Shown here one piece after another: positions 50,154 to 60,542 of a stretch of 64,000 nt of DNA. The DNA comes from Verrucomicrobiota bacterium (GTDB taxonomy: Bacteria > Verrucomicrobiota > Verrucomicrobiia > Limisphaerales > JADLHS01), in contig JAKQDQ010000018.1 of assembly GCA_029573725.1 (NCBI GenBank), positions 1-64,000 of the forward strand, read 5' to 3'. The translations under genes were made by a program, and so were the position numbers. The notes under the pieces were generated by a model that was not told the origin of the DNA, did no database searches, and saw nothing but the letters and a program-made list of their open reading frames with translations. Within the stretch, counting starts at the first letter, position 1; each line of letters opens with the position of its first letter.

Positions 50154-52808
50154 ATGGCACGGAAGGATGCAACGGGAGCGCACAATGGTTGGGCGGATTT
50201 TATCGGCCTGGGTTTGCTGGCCGCCGCGGTGCTGTTGTTGCTGGCGCAATGGTCGTTTGATCGTGGCGACATCAGCGCCCTGGTGAATCCGCCCAACAAG
50301 CCGTTGCACAACTGGATTGGTTCGGCAGGAGCGCATGTGGCGTGGGTGTTCTTTTTGCTGTTTGGCCTCACGGCGTACCTGGTGCCGGCGCTCTTCCTGA
50401 TTTTCGGACTGGGACACCTGTTCAACTTCATGGGGTACCTCCGGGAGCGTTCCAAATGGAGCGCTTTCTGGGCGGTCATGCTGCTGGTCTCGCTGACGGG
50501 GCTGTTGCACATCCTCCATGATTCGGGGATGACTGGACAGGTGCCCGAACGCCTGGGTTCGCAGTGGGCCGGAGGCTGGCTGGGGTGGTTGACCTTTGAA
50601 TACTTGTTTTGGATGGCGGGCAAGGTGGGCGCAATCATCCTGTATCTGACCCTGGCGTTGTTTGGGGTGCTGTTCCTGACCAATTTCCGTCTGGGCGCAT
50701 GGTTGCAGACCTGGGCGGCGGAGCAGACCATGCCGTTTGCCAAAGCCGGCGCCAATTCCGCCGAGGCAGCGTTGGAGCGCCGGGCGCGTGATTTGGAACG
50801 CAAGAAGCGCGACCTCGAGGCGGAGGTGGCCAAAACCATAACCGCCACCAGCGGCGGGACCGAACACGGATTGGGTCCCGACCTGCGCCCGGTGCCGGAA
50901 CCCACGGTGCGGGATCTGAGCGTGCCGCAAGTCAAGGGACGCGGGAAGAAAACCGAAAAAACTGAACCCACTAAGGAAATTGAGCCTGCGGACGAAGGTG
51001 AGGTGATTTCCGCCGCCGAAGTCAAGGCCGCCGCCAGCGCGGCCAATTCCAGCGAGGTCAAGACGGAAGCGAAGCAGGAAGGCGACGGCAGGCCGGGGCC
51101 GGCCGATCCGGCGGATGCAGCCGGCACTCAAGCCACCGAAACAAAACCGGAACCCAAAATCCACATCACCCACGGCCCCCAGGGCCGCGCCCGCGCGCGT
51201 CGCAAACCAATCACCGTCGCCGCAACGCCGTTGATCGGGAATTACCAGCTGCCCTCATTGGATTTTCTGCACCTGCCCGACCTCACGGTCAAGCCGACGG
51301 AATCCAAGGAGGAATTACTGGCCAACGCACGGCTGATGCAGCAAACCCTCGCGCAGTTTGACATCCCGGTTGAACTGGGGGACATCACCAAGGGGCCGAC
51401 CATTACCCGTTACGAACTGCATCCGGCCCCGGGGGTGAAGCTGGAAAAGATCACCGGGTTGGCCAACAATATCGCCGCGGCATTAAAAGCGGAACGGATC
51501 AACATTCTGGCGCCGATTCCCGGCAAAAGCTCGGTGGGCGTGGAAGTGCCGAACACGGTGAAAACCAAGGTCATCGTGCGGGATTTGTTCGAGACCGATG
51601 AATGGCGCAATACCAAGGCGAAAATTCCCGTGGCGCTTGGCAAGGACGTTTACGGGCATCCGATCATCGCGGATCTGGCGGAGATGCCGCATTGTCTCAT
51701 CGCCGGCAGCACGGGCTCCGGCAAATCCGTCTGCATCAATGCGATCATCGCCTCCCTGCTGTACCGCTTCACCCCGGATCAGATGCGTTTCGTGATGATT
51801 GATCCGAAGGTGGTGGAATTGCAGCAATACAACGTGCTGCCGCATCTGGTCGTGCCGGTGGTGACGGATCCCAAGAAGGTGATTCTGGCGCTGCGCTGGG
51901 TGGTGAGCGAGATGGAAAAGCGATACCAGATTTTTGCGCGGGTGGGCGTGCGCAACATTGCCACGTTCAATGCGCGGCCCCGGCACAAACCCCTGCCGGA
52001 ACGGGAGCCGGAGTTGCCGCTGACCAGCAAGAAGGAAAAGGTGGAACCGGGCGCGGAAGGCTTTGCCGTGGAGGTGGACGAGGAAATCGTCGTGCCCCGC
52101 GAGGAGGACATCGTCATTCCCGAGAAGTTAAGCTACATCGTGGTGATCATTGACGAGCTGGCGGATTTGATGCTGGTGGCGCCCGCCGATGTGGAGATGG
52201 CGATTGCGCGCATCACCCAAATGGCGCGCGCGGCGGGCATCCATTGCATTGTGGCGACGCAACGGCCGTCGGTGGACGTCATCACGGGCGTGATCAAGGC
52301 CAACATACCCGCGCGCATTGCGTTTCAAGTCGCGGCCAAGGTGGATTCCCGCACCATTCTCGACGCCATGGGTGCGGACAAGCTGCTCGGCAAGGGGGAC
52401 ATGCTGTACCTGCCTCCGGGTTCGGCCAAATTGATCCGTGCCCAGGGCGCGCTGATCACCGACCAGGAGATTCAGAACGTCGTGGATTTCATCGCCAAAC
52501 AGGCCAAGCCCAGTTATGAGATGGAAATCCACCAACAGCTGTCCCGGCCCACGCCGGCGGCCAGCGAGAGCGGCATTGACGAGGATGAGGAGATCATCCA
52601 GGACTGCATCGAAGTCATCCGCAGCGAACAAAAAGCGAGCGTCTCCCTGTTGCAGCGGCGGTTGCGGCTCGGCTACGGCCGCGCGGCCCGCATCATGGAT
52701 GAACTTGAAAACCGCGGCATCGTGGGGCCGAGCAAGGGTGCGGAGCCGCGGGATATTCTGATTGATCTGGACGTGCCGGCGGAAACGGAAGATCCCGCGC
52801 CTCATTGA
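50154..52808 (+). CDS. ftsK: DNA translocase FtsK/SpoIIIE
   Basis: An 884-residue chromosome-segregation translocase. It has four or more N-terminal membrane segments (FIGLGLLAAAVLLLLAQWSF; HVAWVFFLLFGLTAYLVPAL), a charged linker (about 215-380), and an AAA+ motor. Walker A is GSTGSGKSV (residues 518-526) and Walker B lies in SYIVVIIDELADLM. The motor contains an insertion between the two boxes (about residues 610-655, EREPELPLTSKKEKVEP and EEIVVPREEDIVIP). The C-terminal gamma winged helix (LLQRRLRLGYGRAARIMDEL) reads KOPS-like sites. The protein moves DNA at the septum. Confidence 0.94.
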   Translation: MARKDATGAHNGWADFIGLGLLAAAVLLLLAQWSFDRGDISALVNPPNKPLHNWIGSAGAHVAWVFFLLFGLTAYLVPALFLIFGLGHLFNFMGYLRERSKWSAFWAVMLLVSLTGLLHILHDSGMTGQVPERLGSQWAGGWLGWLTFEYLFWMAGKVGAIILYLTLALFGVLFLTNFRLGAWLQTWAAEQTMPFAKAGANSAEAALERRARDLERKKRDLEAEVAKTITATSGGTEHGLGPDLRPVPEPTVRDLSVPQVKGRGKKTEKTEPTKEIEPADEGEVISAAEVKAAASAANSSEVKTEAKQEGDGRPGPADPADAAGTQATETKPEPKIHITHGPQGRARARRKPITVAATPLIGNYQLPSLDFLHLPDLTVKPTESKEELLANARLMQQTLAQFDIPVELGDITKGPTITRYELHPAPGVKLEKITGLANNIAAALKAERINILAPIPGKSSVGVEVPNTVKTKVIVRDLFETDEWRNTKAKIPVALGKDVYGHPIIADLAEMPHCLIAGSTGSGKSVCINAIIASLLYRFTPDQMRFVMIDPKVVELQQYNVLPHLVVPVVTDPKKVILALRWVVSEMEKRYQIFARVGVRNIATFNARPRHKPLPEREPELPLTSKKEKVEPGAEGFAVEVDEEIVVPREEDIVIPEKLSYIVVIIDELADLMLVAPADVEMAIARITQMARAAGIHCIVATQRPSVDVITGVIKANIPARIAFQVAAKVDSRTILDAMGADKLLGKGDMLYLPPGSAKLIRAQGALITDQEIQNVVDFIAKQAKPSYEMEIHQQLSRPTPAASESGIDEDEEIIQDCIEVIRSEQKASVSLLQRRLRLGYGRAARIMDELENRGIVGPSKGAEPRDILIDLDVPAETEDPAPH

Positions 52809-53021: not shown

Positions 53022-54935
53022 ATGGCGAAGAGCACGACATTTTTGGCGGCGGATTTTGGCGCCGGCACGCTGAAGCTGGCTGAGTTCGAAGTGAACGAAG
53101 CCGGCGGGCTGGTCTTCAGGAACTACATCCTGAAACCGCTTGGCCTGCAGGGGGCGCAGGAAACGCGCCGGGAAGAGCTGGTGGTCAAGAAGTTGCAGGA
53201 AGCCATTGCCGAACTGGATCTCAAATCCAAGGAGATCAATGTTTGCGCCCCGGGTTTTCATGTTTTTTCCAAATTCGTGAAGCTGCCCCCGGTGGATGCC
53301 GGCAAAGTCACGCAAATCGTCCAGTACGAGGCGCAGCAAAATGTCCCTTTCCCGCTCGCCGAGGTTGTTTGGGACTATCAGATTTTGGGCGCCACCGCCG
53401 GAGGGGAGTTGGAGGTGTTGCTGGTGGCCATCAAGTCGAACATCGTGGATGGCTTGTTTCGCACCACGGAAGCCAGCGGCCTGAAACTGAATATCTGCGA
53501 TGTTTCGCCCGCGGCGCTGTGCAATGCCTTCCGGTTCAGCTATGGCGAGCCGGAGGAATGCACCATGTTGCTCGATATCGGGGCCAAAACCAGCAACCTG
53601 GTGATGTTTGAGAAGGGGAAGGTGTTTGCGCGCAGCATCAATCTCGGCGCGAACGCCATCACCCAGGATTTTGCCAATGAGTCGAAGCTGAAGTTCGACG
53701 CCGCCGAGAAGATCAAGATCGAGCAGGGCTTCGTCAGCCTGGGGGGGGCGTACGAAGAGCCGGAAAATCCGCATCAGGCCGCCATCTCGAAGATTGCCCG
53801 GCAGTTCATGACCCGGTTGCACATCCAGGTCAATCAGACGCTGCAATTCTATCGCGGCCAACAAGGCGGCGGCGCACCCCAGCGCCTGTATCTGGCGGGA
53901 GGCGCTTCCATCATGCCCTACACGGCGCAGTTTTTCGCGGAAAAGCTCAATGTCCCGGTGGAGTACTTCAATCCGTTCCGCAGCATTCAAATTGATCCGG
54001 CGGTCAACCTGGAGGGGCTTTCCAAGGTGGCGCATGCGTTGGGTGAGGTGGTGGGATTGGGCTTGCGGAATCTCGCCAACTGTCCGGTGGAGTTGAATCT
54101 GATCCCGCAGAGCACCCTGCGGGCGCAGAGTTTCAACGAAAAGAAACCGTACCTGATTGCCACGCTGGGCAGTCTGGCCTTGATGGCGTTGGCGGTGGGC
54201 TTTTTGTTCAACAAACTGGCCAGCATCAAGGAGGAAAAGTTGAATGAACTGCAGCCCAAGCTGGACGTGTTGAAGAACAAGGACCAGTTGTTCAAGCGGG
54301 AATACGGCAAGGTGAAGAAGCTCATGGACGAAGCCACGCAATACGGGGACTGGCTGGCGGAGCGGGCGCTCTGGCCGCAGGTCCTCGAGGAAATTCGTGG
54401 GGCGCTGATCCGAACCGAAAGCATCACCGAACAGGAGTTTGGGACGGACACCGGCGTGTGGGTGGAGAAGATCAATTCCTTCAGCCCCATTGGCGCGGAC
54501 CCCAACGCGGCGGCGAGCGCGTTGAGCGCCATGAACCCGGAGCGACCCACGGGATTTGCCGGGGGAATGGACCCCCGGATGGCCGAGCGTTATCGCCGCT
54601 ATGCGCCGGCGCCGATGGGCGCGGAACGCTTTGCCGAAGGCCCGATGCCCATGCCGGACGCGGCGGCCGGCGGCGCGGTGGACGGGACGGGCGAAGCAAA
54701 GACGAATCAGGTGGGAACGATCAAGCTGGAATGCCGCGGGGTCAGCCTGCGCAACATCAACCCCGCCGCAGATCAACGCATCGTCTTCGAATTCCACAAA
54801 CAACTGGCCAACACCAACAGCACGGTGGTGGATGCGGAAGGCACCAAACTGGACCCGCAAATCATCCAGGATGATGCCACGGGCACGTTCACCTTTGGCC
54901 TGACCCTGTCCTTGAAACGACCGTTGAGTTTGTAA
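53022..54935 (+). CDS. pilM: PilM-PilN fusion protein (Amuc_1101-like)
   Basis: A 637-residue protein. The first 370 residues are an actin-like PilM (FLAADFGAGTLKLAEFEVNE; LLDIGAKTSNLVMFEKGKVF; RLYLAGGASIMPYTAQFFAE). It then has one membrane helix (PYLIATLGSLALMALAVGFL, about residues 382-402), a coiled coil (about 405-445) and a periplasmic region like PilN, including a Pro/Met-rich linker (about 510-560) and a C-terminal beta-rich part. In standard type IV pilus systems PilM is cytoplasmic and binds the tail of separate PilN; here the two are one chain. Akkermansia has a similar protein, Amuc_1101. It starts the operon. Confidence 0.85.
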   Translation: MAKSTTFLAADFGAGTLKLAEFEVNEAGGLVFRNYILKPLGLQGAQETRREELVVKKLQEAIAELDLKSKEINVCAPGFHVFSKFVKLPPVDAGKVTQIVQYEAQQNVPFPLAEVVWDYQILGATAGGELEVLLVAIKSNIVDGLFRTTEASGLKLNICDVSPAALCNAFRFSYGEPEECTMLLDIGAKTSNLVMFEKGKVFARSINLGANAITQDFANESKLKFDAAEKIKIEQGFVSLGGAYEEPENPHQAAISKIARQFMTRLHIQVNQTLQFYRGQQGGGAPQRLYLAGGASIMPYTAQFFAEKLNVPVEYFNPFRSIQIDPAVNLEGLSKVAHALGEVVGLGLRNLANCPVELNLIPQSTLRAQSFNEKKPYLIATLGSLALMALAVGFLFNKLASIKEEKLNELQPKLDVLKNKDQLFKREYGKVKKLMDEATQYGDWLAERALWPQVLEEIRGALIRTESITEQEFGTDTGVWVEKINSFSPIGADPNAAASALSAMNPERPTGFAGGMDPRMAERYRRYAPAPMGAERFAEGPMPMPDAAAGGAVDGTGEAKTNQVGTIKLECRGVSLRNINPAADQRIVFEFHKQLANTNSTVVDAEGTKLDPQIIQDDATGTFTFGLTLSLKRPLSL

Positions 54936-54936
54936 C

Positions 54937-56052
54937 ATGGAGTGGATCAAACGAAATCTGATTTTTGTCGTTAGCGCGGTGGTTGCGTTGATTCTGCTCG
55001 GGGCCGCTGGTTGGTATGGATACTCGGGTTTCAACAACAACTCCGTGAAAAAAGAGGCCATTACCACGGCCTACGGCGAATTAAATGAATTGTACCGCGC
55101 CAAGCCTGCACCCGGAGACGGGAAAAAGGTGGACAACATCAAAATGGCGAAGGAGCAGCAGCAGGAGGCGGACGCCTTTCTCACCAACCTGACCGCTTAC
55201 CTGCAGGAAATCCCCGCCATCCCGGCAAAAACGGGCGTCACGGGCCAGCGTTTCTCGGCCGCCCTGCAGGAAACGATCAGCCAGTTGCAACGTGAAGCCA
55301 CCAACAACAGCGTCATCGTTCCGCCGGGATACAAATTCTCGTTTTCCCAACAGGCATCCCTCGTGCAGTTCGCTCCGGGCACCTTGGACGCCCTGGCGGT
55401 GCAGCTGGGCGAGGTGAAAGCCATCTGCGACATCCTTAACGAGGCCAAGATCAATTCCCTGACCGAAGTCCGCCGGGAACGCGTCCCGGGCAATCCCGAC
55501 GATTTGAAGGGGCCGGTCACGGATTACATTGACAAAAAATCCATCACCAATGATCTGGCGGTTGGCAGCTTTTACGAGATCACTTTCCAAAGCTTCACCC
55601 CGGAACTGGCGGCCGTCCTCACCGGTTTCGCGCGTTCCCCGTACGGTTTGGTGGTCAAAGCAATCAATGTTGAGCCGGCGACGGCCACGTTGCTGAACGA
55701 ACTGATGCCGACCCCGGGGATGCCGGGGTATGCGCTGCCGCCGCAGCCCTACGCGGCCCCGGGGGGGCCGGCCGCACCGGGGTATCAGCCGATGGTCCGT
55801 TCGGAAATGCGGATGGGGATGGGGGTCGGAGGGGGAGGGGCTGAAGGGCGAATGAGCCGGTATGGCGGTGCGGGCCAGATGGCCCCACGCTACGCCCAGG
55901 TGCCGCAAGCCCAGCCGATGCCCGCGCAACCGTATTACGCCAATCCAGCGCTGGTCGCCCCCAAATCGGGGACACAACCGTTTTTAACGGAGAAGCAGTT
56001 GAAGGTGACCTTGTTGGTCGAAGTGCTCAAACTTCTTCCCGCGAAATCGTAA
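54937..56052 (+). CDS. PilO-like inner-membrane protein, Amuc_1100 family
   Basis: A 371-residue protein with a single N-terminal helix (NLIFVVSAVVALILLGAAGW), a helical periplasmic stalk (about residues 30-150) and two small alpha/beta domains (YEITFQSFTPELAAVLTGFA; LKVTLLVEVLKLLPAKS). A Gly/Pro/Met-rich linker lies between them. The layout and the strand-helix pattern resemble Akkermansia Amuc_1100, a pilus-cluster outer-membrane protein; direct residue identity looks low, so the call is by architecture and place. It starts 1 bp after pilM. Confidence 0.75.
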   Translation: MEWIKRNLIFVVSAVVALILLGAAGWYGYSGFNNNSVKKEAITTAYGELNELYRAKPAPGDGKKVDNIKMAKEQQQEADAFLTNLTAYLQEIPAIPAKTGVTGQRFSAALQETISQLQREATNNSVIVPPGYKFSFSQQASLVQFAPGTLDALAVQLGEVKAICDILNEAKINSLTEVRRERVPGNPDDLKGPVTDYIDKKSITNDLAVGSFYEITFQSFTPELAAVLTGFARSPYGLVVKAINVEPATATLLNELMPTPGMPGYALPPQPYAAPGGPAAPGYQPMVRSEMRMGMGVGGGGAEGRMSRYGGAGQMAPRYAQVPQAQPMPAQPYYANPALVAPKSGTQPFLTEKQLKVTLLVEVLKLLPAKS

Positions 56053-56056
56053 CGGC

Positions 56057-56848
56057 ATGGACTTGCTCAAGAAACATTACGAAAAAATCATTCTGGGCGG
56101 GGTGCTGTTGATGCTGGCCCTGGGGGCCGCCTGGTTGCCGCTCAAGATCGGCAGTGAACGGGACGAGCTGCGGCAGGAGGAGGACCGGATCATCAACCAG
56201 CCTGCCAAACCCTTGGAGCCGCTCAATTTTGTCACCCAACAGACGCGCATCACCGATTTGCGGATGGCCACGGTGCTGGATCTGACCTCCTCCAATCACG
56301 TCCTCAATCCGATGCATTGGGAGAAGGGGGCGGATGGGCGCATCGTCAAAATCAAAACCGGTGAAGAAACGGGTCCCAAGGCCCTGGTAGTAACGAAGCA
56401 AACCCCTCTCTATCTGAAAATTGCCCTGGAAGGAGTGAATGCGACTGAAACCCCGCCACGCTACGCGATCAGTGTCGAGCAAGAGGCCGCGCTCGACCGT
56501 CGGAAGCGCGGGCGGAAAACGGTTTTTGCCACCTTGAACAACAAGACGGACGACTTCGTGATCCGTGAAGTTCGCGGGTCCGCCGACAATCCGGAATTGG
56601 TGCTGGAACTGGCGGAGGACGGCGGCACCATCACCCTGTCCAAGGACAAACCGTATCAGCGTGTGGACGGGTATATGGTGGATTTGAAATATCCCCTGGA
56701 GAATCGCGCACCCTGGGTGGGGCAGCGGGTGGGCTCCGCCCTCAAGTTTGGCGGGGAAGATTACATTATCGTTGCGATTACGAAGAATGAAGTTGTAGTC
56801 TCCGCCAAGTCTAACCAGAAAAAGACGCCGATCCCAATCCAGTTGTGA
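56057..56848 (+). CDS. Probable PilP-like pilotin/alignment protein (Amuc_1099-like position)
   Basis: A 263-residue protein with one N-terminal membrane helix (YEKIILGGVLLMLALGAAWL), a variable middle and a C-terminal beta domain (WVGQRVGSALKFGGEDYIIV, then AITKNEVVVSAKSNQKK) that looks like the PilP/GspC homology region, which binds secretin N-domains. No lipobox is seen, unlike classic PilP. It starts 4 bp after the PilO-like gene and precedes the secretin, the order PilM/N-O-P-Q. The name is an inference from fold pattern and order. Confidence 0.65.
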   Translation: MDLLKKHYEKIILGGVLLMLALGAAWLPLKIGSERDELRQEEDRIINQPAKPLEPLNFVTQQTRITDLRMATVLDLTSSNHVLNPMHWEKGADGRIVKIKTGEETGPKALVVTKQTPLYLKIALEGVNATETPPRYAISVEQEAALDRRKRGRKTVFATLNNKTDDFVIREVRGSADNPELVLELAEDGGTITLSKDKPYQRVDGYMVDLKYPLENRAPWVGQRVGSALKFGGEDYIIVAITKNEVVVSAKSNQKKTPIPIQL

Positions 56849-56910
56849 CCAGTTTTGCAAACGTCCGAGTAACAATTTCCGCATTTGTGATTAAAACCAG
56901 AAGTCATCTC

Positions 56911-59604
56911 ATGACAAAAGCCGCTGCCATTAAAATTCTCGCCGCCGTGCTCGTTGCCACCGCATTTTCGGCCACCGTCGTTGTCGGCGCCGAGACGGAT
57001 GCTGCCATTTCGGAAGCCGTCCGCCGGGACGCCAACAAGATTCTGCTTGTGCAGAAACTGGAGGAGGCCAGTCGCGCCGTGGCCAATCGCGATCTGGGCA
57101 ACGCCGCCAAACTGTACGACGCGGCCGTGTCGCTGGTGGATCAGATCGGGGCGGTCAATTGCGAACTGGAAGCGGGCGAAGCCATTCGCGGGTTTGCCGG
57201 CGTGCGGCTGCAGCTGGCGGAACTGGCGCGGAAGCGCGGGGATTTCCGCGAGGTGGACGTGCAGTTGAACCGGATTCTCAAGGTGGACCCCAAAAATTCC
57301 CAGGCGCTGCTGGCCAAACAGCAAAACGACAAAACTTTGCGCGAACTGCGGGGACAAATTCCCACCGATGCGGCGGTGTCCGAGGCCCGGAAGGGGCAGG
57401 AAGCCCTGGTGGAATCCAATACCCACGTGCAAAATGCGCGGGTTCTGTTGGAATCCGGCCGTCTGGATCAGGCGGAGGCGGAATTGGATCAGGCGCTGCA
57501 ACTCGTTCCCGGCAATCCCTCCGCCTTGCGCTACAAGGAGCTGCTGCGCAATCAACGCTACCAGATCAGCTTGTCCCATAAAAACCGGGACAATGGCGAG
57601 AAAATCCTGGAAGTGGTGAATACCTATGCCGACCGTAAAGACCGGGACCGGCTGCCGGTGCCCAATCCGTATAATCGTGTGGATACCGTTCATACCGGCA
57701 AAGGGCGTCAGGCGATTTACGAAAAGTTAAACAGCATCAAATTCGACATATTTCCCCCCGAAGGTTCCCCGGATTCCCTGCCGCTGAGTGAAATTGTGCG
57801 GATCCTCGGTCAGGAGTCGCCAAAGCGCGACCCGAATAAGGAGGGGGTCAACATCATGATTGATCCGACGCGTCCCGCCCAGGCGGCGGCGACGGCCGTG
57901 CCCATGATTGATCCGGCGACCGGTTTGCCCCTGCCGCCTCAACCCAGCAGCGAGGAGGAGGTGGATGTGGGCTCCATTAACGTGCGCTTCGGGTCACCCC
58001 TGCGGCGGGTAACCTTGAATCAAGTGCTGGATGCCATTACCACGGTGGCGGAACGTCCGCTCAAGATTTCCTATCGGGAGTACGCCATTTACCTCTCCTT
58101 GAAGGGCCAGGAAACGACGCCATTGTTCACCCGCCAATTCGATTTGGATCCCAACACGTTTTATCAAGGGCTGGTCAATGTGACTGCTGAATACTTGGAT
58201 ATTGCCTCGCAAAGCAGCGGCGGGGGCGGCGGCGGCGGGGGTGGCGGCGGTGCCAGTGGGCAATCTTCCTACATCATTCCCCGCGTGAGCGTTACCGGAC
58301 AGACCAGCTCCATTGGCGGTCAGGGCGGTGGTGGAGGTGGCGGCTCGCAGCAACAATTGGGAGGGGGAATTCCCGGGATCACGACCACCAACAGCATGGA
58401 GGCCGTTTCCGCGACCGCCCGGCAGTTTTTCTTCAACCTCGGCATCAACCTTGATCCCGCGCTGGGCAAGAGCGTGTTTTTCAATGACCGCAAGGGCATC
58501 TTGCTGGTCCGGGCGACCGCCGAAGAACTGGATCTGATCGAGCAGGTGATCCGGGTGATGAACGTCGCTCCGCCGCTGGTGAACATCAAGACCCGGTTCA
58601 CCGAGATTTCGCAGAACGACAGCAAGGCCCTGGGTTTTGACTGGTTCCTGGGCAATCTCATGGTCGGCAACAAGTCGGCGCTCTCCGGCGGCACCCAGCC
58701 CTCGTTTACCGGCAGTCCGTCGCAGGCGAATCCGGGCGGCTTCTTTCCCGGCACCGGACCGTCCGGCATTATCCCGCCGTCGGCCGGCGACCAGCTTTTG
58801 TCGGGTGGTTTGCGCAACACGTTCGGCACGGATGCCACGGACATCCCCGCCTTGGCCAGCTTTACGGGGATTCTGACGGACCCGCAGTTCCGGGTGGTGC
58901 TGCGGGCCATCGAGCAGCGGGACGGCATTGAGCTGCTGAACGAAGGGCAAATCACCACCTTGAGCGGTCGTCAGGCGCAAATTCAGGTGGTGGAAGTCAA
59001 AACGATCGTTACAGGCGTGGATCAGAGCCAGGGAAACCAGGGCGGCGTGGCGGCCACTTCCGGCAGCGGCACCGTGAATCAGGCGGTGGCAGCGACCTTC
59101 CAAACGCCCAACACGTCGCCGGTGCCGCTCGGGCCAGTGATTGATGTGTTGCCCACGGTTTCTTCCGATGGCGTCACGATTCAAATGGCCATCATTCCCA
59201 CCTACACCGAATTTGTGGGTTATGACCTGACGACGGCGCAGTCGTTTGTGCCGACGGCCATCACCGGGACCGGCGCCACCCTGGCGGGCACCTTGCCGTT
59301 GCCCGTCTTCCGGGTGCGGCAACTGGCGACCAGCTGCATTGTCTGGGATGGTCAGACGGTGGTGCTGGGGGGGTTGATTTCCGATACGGTAACCAAGCAG
59401 AAGGACAAGGTGCCGTTTCTGGCCGACATTCCGCTGATGGGCAAATTGTTCACCAGTGAATCCTCCCAGACCAAGAAGAAGAATCTGGTGATTTTCGTCA
59501 CTCCCCGGATCATTGACCCTGCCGGCAATCCGGCTCATGCGGATAACGAATTACCCTTCGCACAAGGGGCGACGCCGCAGATAAACAGTGCGGCGATGCG
59601 GTAG
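56911..59604 (+). CDS. Secretin of a type IV pilus/type II secretion-like system (Amuc_1098-like)
   Basis: An 897-residue outer-membrane secretin with a signal peptide (MTKAAAIKILAAVLVATAFS). Its N-terminal 190 residues form TPR-like helices (NRDLGNAAKLYDAAVSLVDQ; LESGRLDQAEAELDQALQLV). Secretin N-domains follow (SINVRFGSPLRRVTLNQVLD; ILLVRATAEELDLIEQVIRV), with Gly-rich linkers around residues 440-510. The C-terminal secretin barrel ends in CIVWDGQTVVLGGLISDTV, VPFLADIPLMGKLFTS and KKKNLVIFVTPRIID. It should form the pore for the PilM/N-O-P complex. I chose the ATG at 56911, which starts the signal peptide; an upstream frame exists. Confidence 0.9.
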   Translation: MTKAAAIKILAAVLVATAFSATVVVGAETDAAISEAVRRDANKILLVQKLEEASRAVANRDLGNAAKLYDAAVSLVDQIGAVNCELEAGEAIRGFAGVRLQLAELARKRGDFREVDVQLNRILKVDPKNSQALLAKQQNDKTLRELRGQIPTDAAVSEARKGQEALVESNTHVQNARVLLESGRLDQAEAELDQALQLVPGNPSALRYKELLRNQRYQISLSHKNRDNGEKILEVVNTYADRKDRDRLPVPNPYNRVDTVHTGKGRQAIYEKLNSIKFDIFPPEGSPDSLPLSEIVRILGQESPKRDPNKEGVNIMIDPTRPAQAAATAVPMIDPATGLPLPPQPSSEEEVDVGSINVRFGSPLRRVTLNQVLDAITTVAERPLKISYREYAIYLSLKGQETTPLFTRQFDLDPNTFYQGLVNVTAEYLDIASQSSGGGGGGGGGGGASGQSSYIIPRVSVTGQTSSIGGQGGGGGGGSQQQLGGGIPGITTTNSMEAVSATARQFFFNLGINLDPALGKSVFFNDRKGILLVRATAEELDLIEQVIRVMNVAPPLVNIKTRFTEISQNDSKALGFDWFLGNLMVGNKSALSGGTQPSFTGSPSQANPGGFFPGTGPSGIIPPSAGDQLLSGGLRNTFGTDATDIPALASFTGILTDPQFRVVLRAIEQRDGIELLNEGQITTLSGRQAQIQVVEVKTIVTGVDQSQGNQGGVAATSGSGTVNQAVAATFQTPNTSPVPLGPVIDVLPTVSSDGVTIQMAIIPTYTEFVGYDLTTAQSFVPTAITGTGATLAGTLPLPVFRVRQLATSCIVWDGQTVVLGGLISDTVTKQKDKVPFLADIPLMGKLFTSESSQTKKKNLVIFVTPRIIDPAGNPAHADNELPFAQGATPQINSAAMR

Positions 59605-59660: not shown

Positions 59661-60542
59661 GTGTCCCGCCTCCTGGTAGTTGACGGTCACGCTTATGCCT
59701 ATCGCGCATTTTACGCGATTCGTTCTTTGAGAATGCCGGACGGCCGGCCCAGCAACGCCATTTACGGCTTTGTGAAGATGCTCGGCAAGATCCGCGCCGC
59801 GCTGCGTCCCAGCCACGCGCTGGTGGCCTGGGATGGTGGACTGAGCCCGGAGCGGCAGCAGACGCTGCCGGGTTACAAGGCGCAGCGGCCGGAAATGCCG
59901 GAGGATCTGCAGGGGCAACTGGATGAAATCACGCGCTATCTGGAGGCGGTGGGGGTGGCCAGTTATTGCGAAACGGATGTGGAGGCGGATGATTACATTG
60001 CGCGAGTGGTCCGTGAGGGGGGCCGCCGGGGAGTGGATGCGGTGATCGCCAGTTCCGACAAGGATTTCATGCAATTGGTGGGCCCGGGAGTCGGCTTGCT
60101 GAATCCCAATGACAAAACGGAAACGATTTGGTCGTCCCAGCAGGTGGAAGCCAAAACCGGCGTGCGTCCGGAGCAGATTGTGGATTGGCTGAGTCTGACG
60201 GGCGATTCGGTGGATAACATTCCCGGAGCGCCGGGGATCGGACCAAAAACTGCCACGGGGCTGTTGCAGCAGTTTCAGAGTGTTGATGAGCTTTACCGGC
60301 GGATCGCGGAAGTGCAGCCACGGCGGGTGCGGGAGGGCTTGCAGGCGGCGGAAGCGGAGGTGCGGCGGAATCAGCGCCTGGTGCGGTTGAATCCCGAAGT
60401 CGGGCAGCCGGTGGACTGGGAAGCATTGCGGGAAAAAGCGGCGGATCGCGGGAAGCTGGCGGAGTTGTATCGTGAGTGGGGTTTCCGTTCCCTGCTGGCG
60501 GAGTTGTTGAAAGCGGGGCCGGCGCAGCCCGAGCTGATTTGA
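59661..60542 (+). CDS. Stand-alone 5'-3' exonuclease (PolA N-domain/ExoIX type)
   Basis: A 293-residue structure-specific nuclease (FEN-like). It starts SRLLVVDGHAYAYRAFYAIR with the first metal-binding Asp, has the acidic cluster in CETDVEADDYIARVV and ASSDKDFMQLV, and the helix-hairpin-helix IPGAPGIGPKTATGLLQQF. It removes RNA primers or flaps. Polymerase domains are absent, so it is either an ExoIX-like protein or a split PolA. The start is GTG at 59661, with AAAGG 6-8 bp upstream; no in-frame ATG lies close. Confidence 0.88.
   Translation: MSRLLVVDGHAYAYRAFYAIRSLRMPDGRPSNAIYGFVKMLGKIRAALRPSHALVAWDGGLSPERQQTLPGYKAQRPEMPEDLQGQLDEITRYLEAVGVASYCETDVEADDYIARVVREGGRRGVDAVIASSDKDFMQLVGPGVGLLNPNDKTETIWSSQQVEAKTGVRPEQIVDWLSLTGDSVDNIPGAPGIGPKTATGLLQQFQSVDELYRRIAEVQPRRVREGLQAAEAEVRRNQRLVRLNPEVGQPVDWEALREKAADRGKLAELYREWGFRSLLAELLKAGPAQPELI

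Follow-up and report, generated by a model that had tools for sequence, protein, structure and literature searches.

Four co-directional open reading frames (ORFs) at 53022-59604 of a 64,000-nucleotide stretch of DNA from a Limisphaerales bacterium (Verrucomicrobiota; assembly GCA_029573725.1, contig JAKQDQ010000018.1, positions 1 to 64,000; the whole stretch is called the window here) very probably encode the PilMNOPQ half (alignment subcomplex plus outer-membrane channel) of a retractable type IVa pilus of the conventional kind. The locus is an ordinary pilus-base operon and not a separate new machine. ORF coordinates confirm the layout given in a preliminary description of this DNA, with four genes separated by 1, 4 and 62 bp (Table 1). 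Judged by the profile scores of genes 1, 2 and 4, the gene content of the operon is far above chance. Features of a type IVa PilMNOPQ base that we found are a PilM domain, PilN, a predicted PilO fold and a secretin, together with PilB, PilT, PilC, prepilin peptidase and pilins encoded in the genome.

Gene 1 is a genuine PilM-PilN fusion, as the PilM coverage, a PilN motif, a transmembrane helix, PilN profile matches and a PilN-like secondary structure together establish. The protein scores 128 bits against Pfam PilM_2 (PF11104) and 143.6 bits against TIGR01175 (pilM), above the cut-off of 133, and a fold search with its predicted model matched Thermus PilM with Z 35.8 over residues 3-352. The motif PVELNLIP that follows matches the N-terminal motif of PilN (INLLP), and this region is conserved as CPIEINLLP in the family alignment. 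A profile of 18 fused proteins matched Myxococcus xanthus PilN (3jc8_Na) with E 1.6e-9 at profile positions 356-483, and its C-terminal part alone found the separate PilN of the same genome (30.2 bits; none of the shuffled controls exceeded 6.4). In the predicted model, residues 450-637 have the order helix-strand-strand-helix-strand-strand, as in PilN. Fold searches with the whole model returned lists filled by PilM, FtsA and actin matches, with no match of the PilN domain by itself. The fusion and its membrane helix had been proposed in the preliminary description, which took a separate pilN as evidence to the contrary. Such a gene does exist on contig C71, yet it belongs to a different set in which pilM, pilN, a PilO/GspM-like gene and a secretin are separate genes (232.6-237.3 kb), and it therefore says nothing against the fusion. 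We found it through its gene neighbourhood; Pfam PilN (PF05137) had no matches in the genome, but this model is insensitive (matches in 2 of 14 control genomes), and we did not read the result as absence.

The PilM-PilN fusion is phylum-wide and neither special nor novel. Amuc_1101 of Akkermansia (612 residues; the NCBI model has 608 positions) has the same layout, and a sample of 145 Verrucomicrobiota genomes gave a fusion match at E 1e-50 or better in about 118, almost always in an open frame of about 520-700 residues. We called the full M-O-P-Q order in 48 of 80 named relatives, most of which are assemblies of Limisphaerales or 'Verrucomicrobia subdivision 3'; in most of the others it was broken by contig ends or by simple ORF calling. 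GspL of type II secretion systems (T2SS) likewise joins PilM-like and PilN-like parts in a single chain (PMC10191384). Given its presence in Amuc_1101 itself, across the phylum and as the architecture of GspL, the fusion is not unusual, and our literature searches surfaced no published account of a Verrucomicrobial PilM-PilN fusion.

Gene 2 looks like a PilO subunit, since its predicted model matches Amuc_1100 first and PilO next. As the preliminary description had proposed, the protein resembles Amuc_1100, both by sequence (Amuc_1100_fam of NCBIfam, E 5e-16) and by predicted fold. Foldseek placed Amuc_1100 at the top for the AlphaFold2 model (E 3e-9), followed by Pseudomonas aeruginosa PilO (2rjz; E 1.5e-3). 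Consistent with this ranking, VIA gave Z 19.2 for Amuc_1100 and Z 9.8 for PilO 2rjz (root-mean-square deviation 2.3, 93 residues aligned), with the GspM/PulL domains of EpsM (Z 7.5) and PulL (Z 7.3) under PilO. We did not count a profile match of gene 2 to Amuc_1100, because the alignment includes Amuc_1100 and the match is partly by construction. The predicted fold ties Amuc_1100 to PilO and indicates that Amuc_1100 is a member of the PilO family of pilus-base proteins. In the standard type IVa pilus base of the phylum, Amuc_1100 is likely to be PilO, a periplasmic subunit anchored in the inner membrane and paired with the PilM-PilN fusion. A PilO role is inconsistent with a review that places Amuc_1100 in the outer membrane, located on pili (PMC10688800). 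Work on Amuc_1100 has treated this 'probiotic' protein as a TLR2 agonist of the outer membrane or of pili; if it is PilO, the surface location reported for it needs to be tested again, and so does the 'protein on pili' model. In the open-access literature, to which the search was confined, no paper names Amuc_1100, PilO and 'type IV pilus' together. Long Pro/Gly/Met-rich inserts of similar composition and low model confidence are present in both the PilN-like and the PilO-like domains.

Gene 3 sits at the place of PilP, a position conserved across the phylum, has one transmembrane helix, which likewise suits PilP, and may fill that role. The profile matches of gene 4 identify it as the secretin component corresponding to PilQ: it scores 106.6 bits against Pfam Secretin (PF00263), its PDB matches are to GspD/PilQ, and its score against the PilQ-specific TIGR02515 is 97.1 bits, below the cut-off of 284. 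By inspection of start sites, gene 4 has an alternative GTG start at 56845 that overlaps gene 3. In some relatives (L051, L138 and L141), gene 3 is followed by a tandem pair of secretin genes.

The operon has the gene order of Amuc_1101-1100-1099-1098 in Akkermansia muciniphila (MUL2, or 'pili-like' cluster), which also combines a PilM-PilN fusion, an Amuc_1100-type second gene and a TPR-bearing secretin (PMC4960237, PMC13174399). The secretin of the Akkermansia locus that we compared has 907 residues and fits the published Amuc_1098 (PMC4960237). Bit scores fall below the curated NCBI cut-offs for Amuc_1101 (471.6 against 650), Amuc_1100 (59 against 180) and Amuc_1098 (296.6 against 750), so on these scores the operon is filed as a relative of the Akkermansia locus and not as an equivalog; only 11 of the 145 phylum genomes pass the Amuc_1101 cut-off. 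In contrast to the five-gene Amuc_1098-1102 cluster, the operon lacks an Amuc_1102 gene upstream of the fusion. This gene had no match in the genome at E up to 10 and was not found in the 80 related loci; it occurs in 83 of the 145 phylum genomes, and many relatives have it immediately 5' of the fusion gene. The preliminary description was thus right about the kinship with the Akkermansia locus, but a free-living relative is not new, as a 2026 paper, which defines the MUL2 locus as Amuc_1099-1102, reports it from Akkermansiaceae of aquatic habitats and from other Verrucomicrobiales (PMC13174399). Compared with PilMNOPQ of the type IVa pili of Myxococcus, Pseudomonas and Thermus, the PilM, PilN, PilO-like and PilQ parts follow the same order, whereas PilM and PilN form one chain here and a PilP equivalent cannot be recognised from the sequence.

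Within the window we found no ATPase, pilin, peptidase or platform gene. That absence ends outside the window, at 86474-87631 of the same contig and genome-wide: the genome has 10 T2SSE/PilB/PilT ATPase matches, one prepilin peptidase gene (contig C149), five secretins and 70 N-methyl pilin-like matches. The pilin-like matches far exceed the need of one pilus, and many lie outside the pilus clusters that we read. Contig C57 carries pilB1-pilT-pilB2-pilC at 25.9-31.8 kb, followed by pilin-like genes up to 37 kb; the Walker A and B motifs of PilB1, PilB2 and PilT are intact, and no base platform or secretin was present within the 20 kb read. Two distinct PilB-type ATPases beside one PilT, as at 25.9-30.5 kb of C57 (L014:7887-12473), also occur in L050, L051 and L140; the pattern is kept in four distant genomes, with Walker A, Walker B and C4 motifs in both PilBs.

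In relatives, operons of this type are linked to motors. One strand of relative G055 reads 1102-MN-O-P-Q-Q-pilB1-pilB2-pilT-pilC, and relative G015 has pilB1-pilT-pilB2, pilin-like genes and 1102-MN-O-P-Q. When the linked motor and platform proteins of these two relatives were compared with 11 homologues from the genome studied here (a set without the PilT of contig C73), the C57 copy came out closest every time. For PilB1 of G015 the C57 copy scored 666 bits and the next ATPase 499 bits; the corresponding values were 524 and 317 bits for PilT of G015 and 413 and 208 bits for PilC of G055. The simplest interpretation is a single type IVa pilus with its two halves separated in this lineage. Co-occurrence of the fusion and PilT across the phylum also points to one type IVa pilus: the fusion is absent from 6 of 8 genomes without a strong PilT and from 21 of 137 with PilT (Fisher p 5e-4, a value that is only indicative, as the test counts related genomes as independent).

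The treatment of related genomes in that test weighs against assigning the operon to a type IVa pilus, as do several other observations. Two PilT-less genomes (G116 and G136) retain the fusion, and many PilT-bearing genomes lack it. There is no direct linkage in the present genome, whose assembly of 187 contigs has the motors and the operon on different contigs, and the motorless platform and secretin set at 232-237 kb of C71 could also use the C57 motors. Confidence in the gene 2 model is modest (mean predicted local distance difference test score 69.5), and searching the PDB with the single sequence of gene 2 gave no matches. Finally, neither Pfam, NCBIfam nor PDB profiles revealed PilP or GspC similarity in gene 3; of the M/N-O-P-Q order in the preliminary description, M/N, O and Q are supported, and the third member is a PilP candidate by position.

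Having seen no ATPase, pilin or prepilin peptidase gene nearby, the preliminary description proposed a stand-alone envelope machine. A secretin-based uptake or export channel without motors or pilins would agree with the gene content of the window, and also with accounts of the Akkermansia genes: MUL2 genes are described as mediating mucin transport and processing (PMC13174399), MUL genes as needed for the accumulation of mucin products in internal compartments (PMC12418764), and these descriptions do not have MUL genes making visible twitching pili. A wider search, which located pilB, pilT and pilin genes elsewhere in the genome, does not support the proposal. With the operon contiguous with pilB-pilT-pilB2 in relatives (and with pilC in one), matching motors in the genome, numerous pilin-like genes and a prepilin peptidase, and a strong PilT in all sampled Akkermansia-type genomes (f3/g3), we regard a stand-alone machine as very improbable. 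Slightly less probable still is that the C57 motors serve two bases, the operon and the C71 set, so that the operon is not a dedicated machine. Both sets have a platform and secretin without a motor of their own nearby, and C57 has a full pilB-pilT-pilC set but no base; however, relatives link C57-type motors to operons of the present type (no search was made for motors linked to the C71 set). The least probable alternative is a second T2SS in which gene 1 is GspL and gene 2 is GspM. The fold of gene 2 does resemble EpsM and PulL, though less than PilO, the sequence of gene 4 resembles GspD as well as PilQ, and the one-chain architecture of gene 1 recalls GspL in GspL-GspM-GspD. The sequence of gene 1 is nevertheless PilM-type, with no GspL model match in Pfam or NCBIfam, the motors linked in relatives include PilT, which a T2SS lacks, and the genome already has a separate T2SS cluster at 294-306 kb of C71.

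If the operon is the base of a type IVa pilus, the PilM domain would bind motor ATPases in the cytoplasm, and its fusion to PilN would keep it permanently at the inner membrane. In the periplasm, the PilN domain and the PilO-like (Amuc_1100-type) protein would form a pair, the third protein would probably bridge to the secretin, and the fibre would pass through the secretin. As the working partner, C57 (25.9-37 kb) would supply PilB1, PilT and PilB2 as motors, PilC as platform protein and the pilins, and C149 would supply the prepilin peptidase. Once assembled, such a pilus may serve in adhesion, motility or uptake. Through the operon, the much-studied Amuc_1098-1102 cluster is connected with a standard pilus base common to the phylum and with one particular motor locus, and the role and topology of Amuc_1100 thereby become directly testable.

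Table 1. Genes of the operon, their parts and the adjoining genes in the window
Feature	Position in window	Strand	Residues	Description
Upstream gene	50154-52808			FtsK-type
Gene 1	53022-54935	+	637 in total	PilM-PilN fusion (Amuc_1101-like)
Gene 1, domain			1-350	PilM actin-like domain
Gene 1, motif			355-362	PilN motif PVELNLIP
Gene 1, helix			376-402	Single transmembrane helix, hydrophobic
Gene 1, C-terminal part			about 450-637	Ferredoxin-like periplasmic domain, preceded by a coiled coil
Gene 1, insert	54492-54704		491-561	Low-confidence insert in periplasmic domain
Gene 2	54937-56052	+	371 in total	Amuc_1100/PilO-like protein
Gene 2, helix			2-29	Transmembrane, then long helix, then periplasmic core
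Gene 2, insert	55705-55977		about 257-347	Low-complexity insert, low model confidence
Gene 3	56057-56848	+	263 in total	Amuc_1099-position protein
Gene 3, helix			9-32	Transmembrane, then periplasmic part
Gene 4	56911-59604	+	897 in total	Amuc_1098/PilQ-like secretin
Gene 4, domains				Signal sequence, TPR region, N domains, secretin domain
Downstream gene	59661-60542			5'-3' exonuclease-like

The order of secretin and 5'-3' exonuclease-like gene is kept across families of the phylum (L136, L137 and many of L057-L131), and a functional link of the latter to the secretin operon is not obvious. Other pilus-type clusters were also seen in the genome. At 85.9-92.0 kb, the contig of the window (C127) carries a compact set of ATPase, GspL-like, GspM and secretin genes (L012:7953-14002), with no pilin gene noticed nearby. 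Contig C34 has, at 51.9-58.9 kb (L016:3946-10880), genes for a secretin, a PilM-like protein of 590 residues with a membrane segment, a PilO-like protein and an ATPase; the PilM similarity of the 590-residue protein is weak, and it is possibly an independent fusion of the PilM-PilN type.
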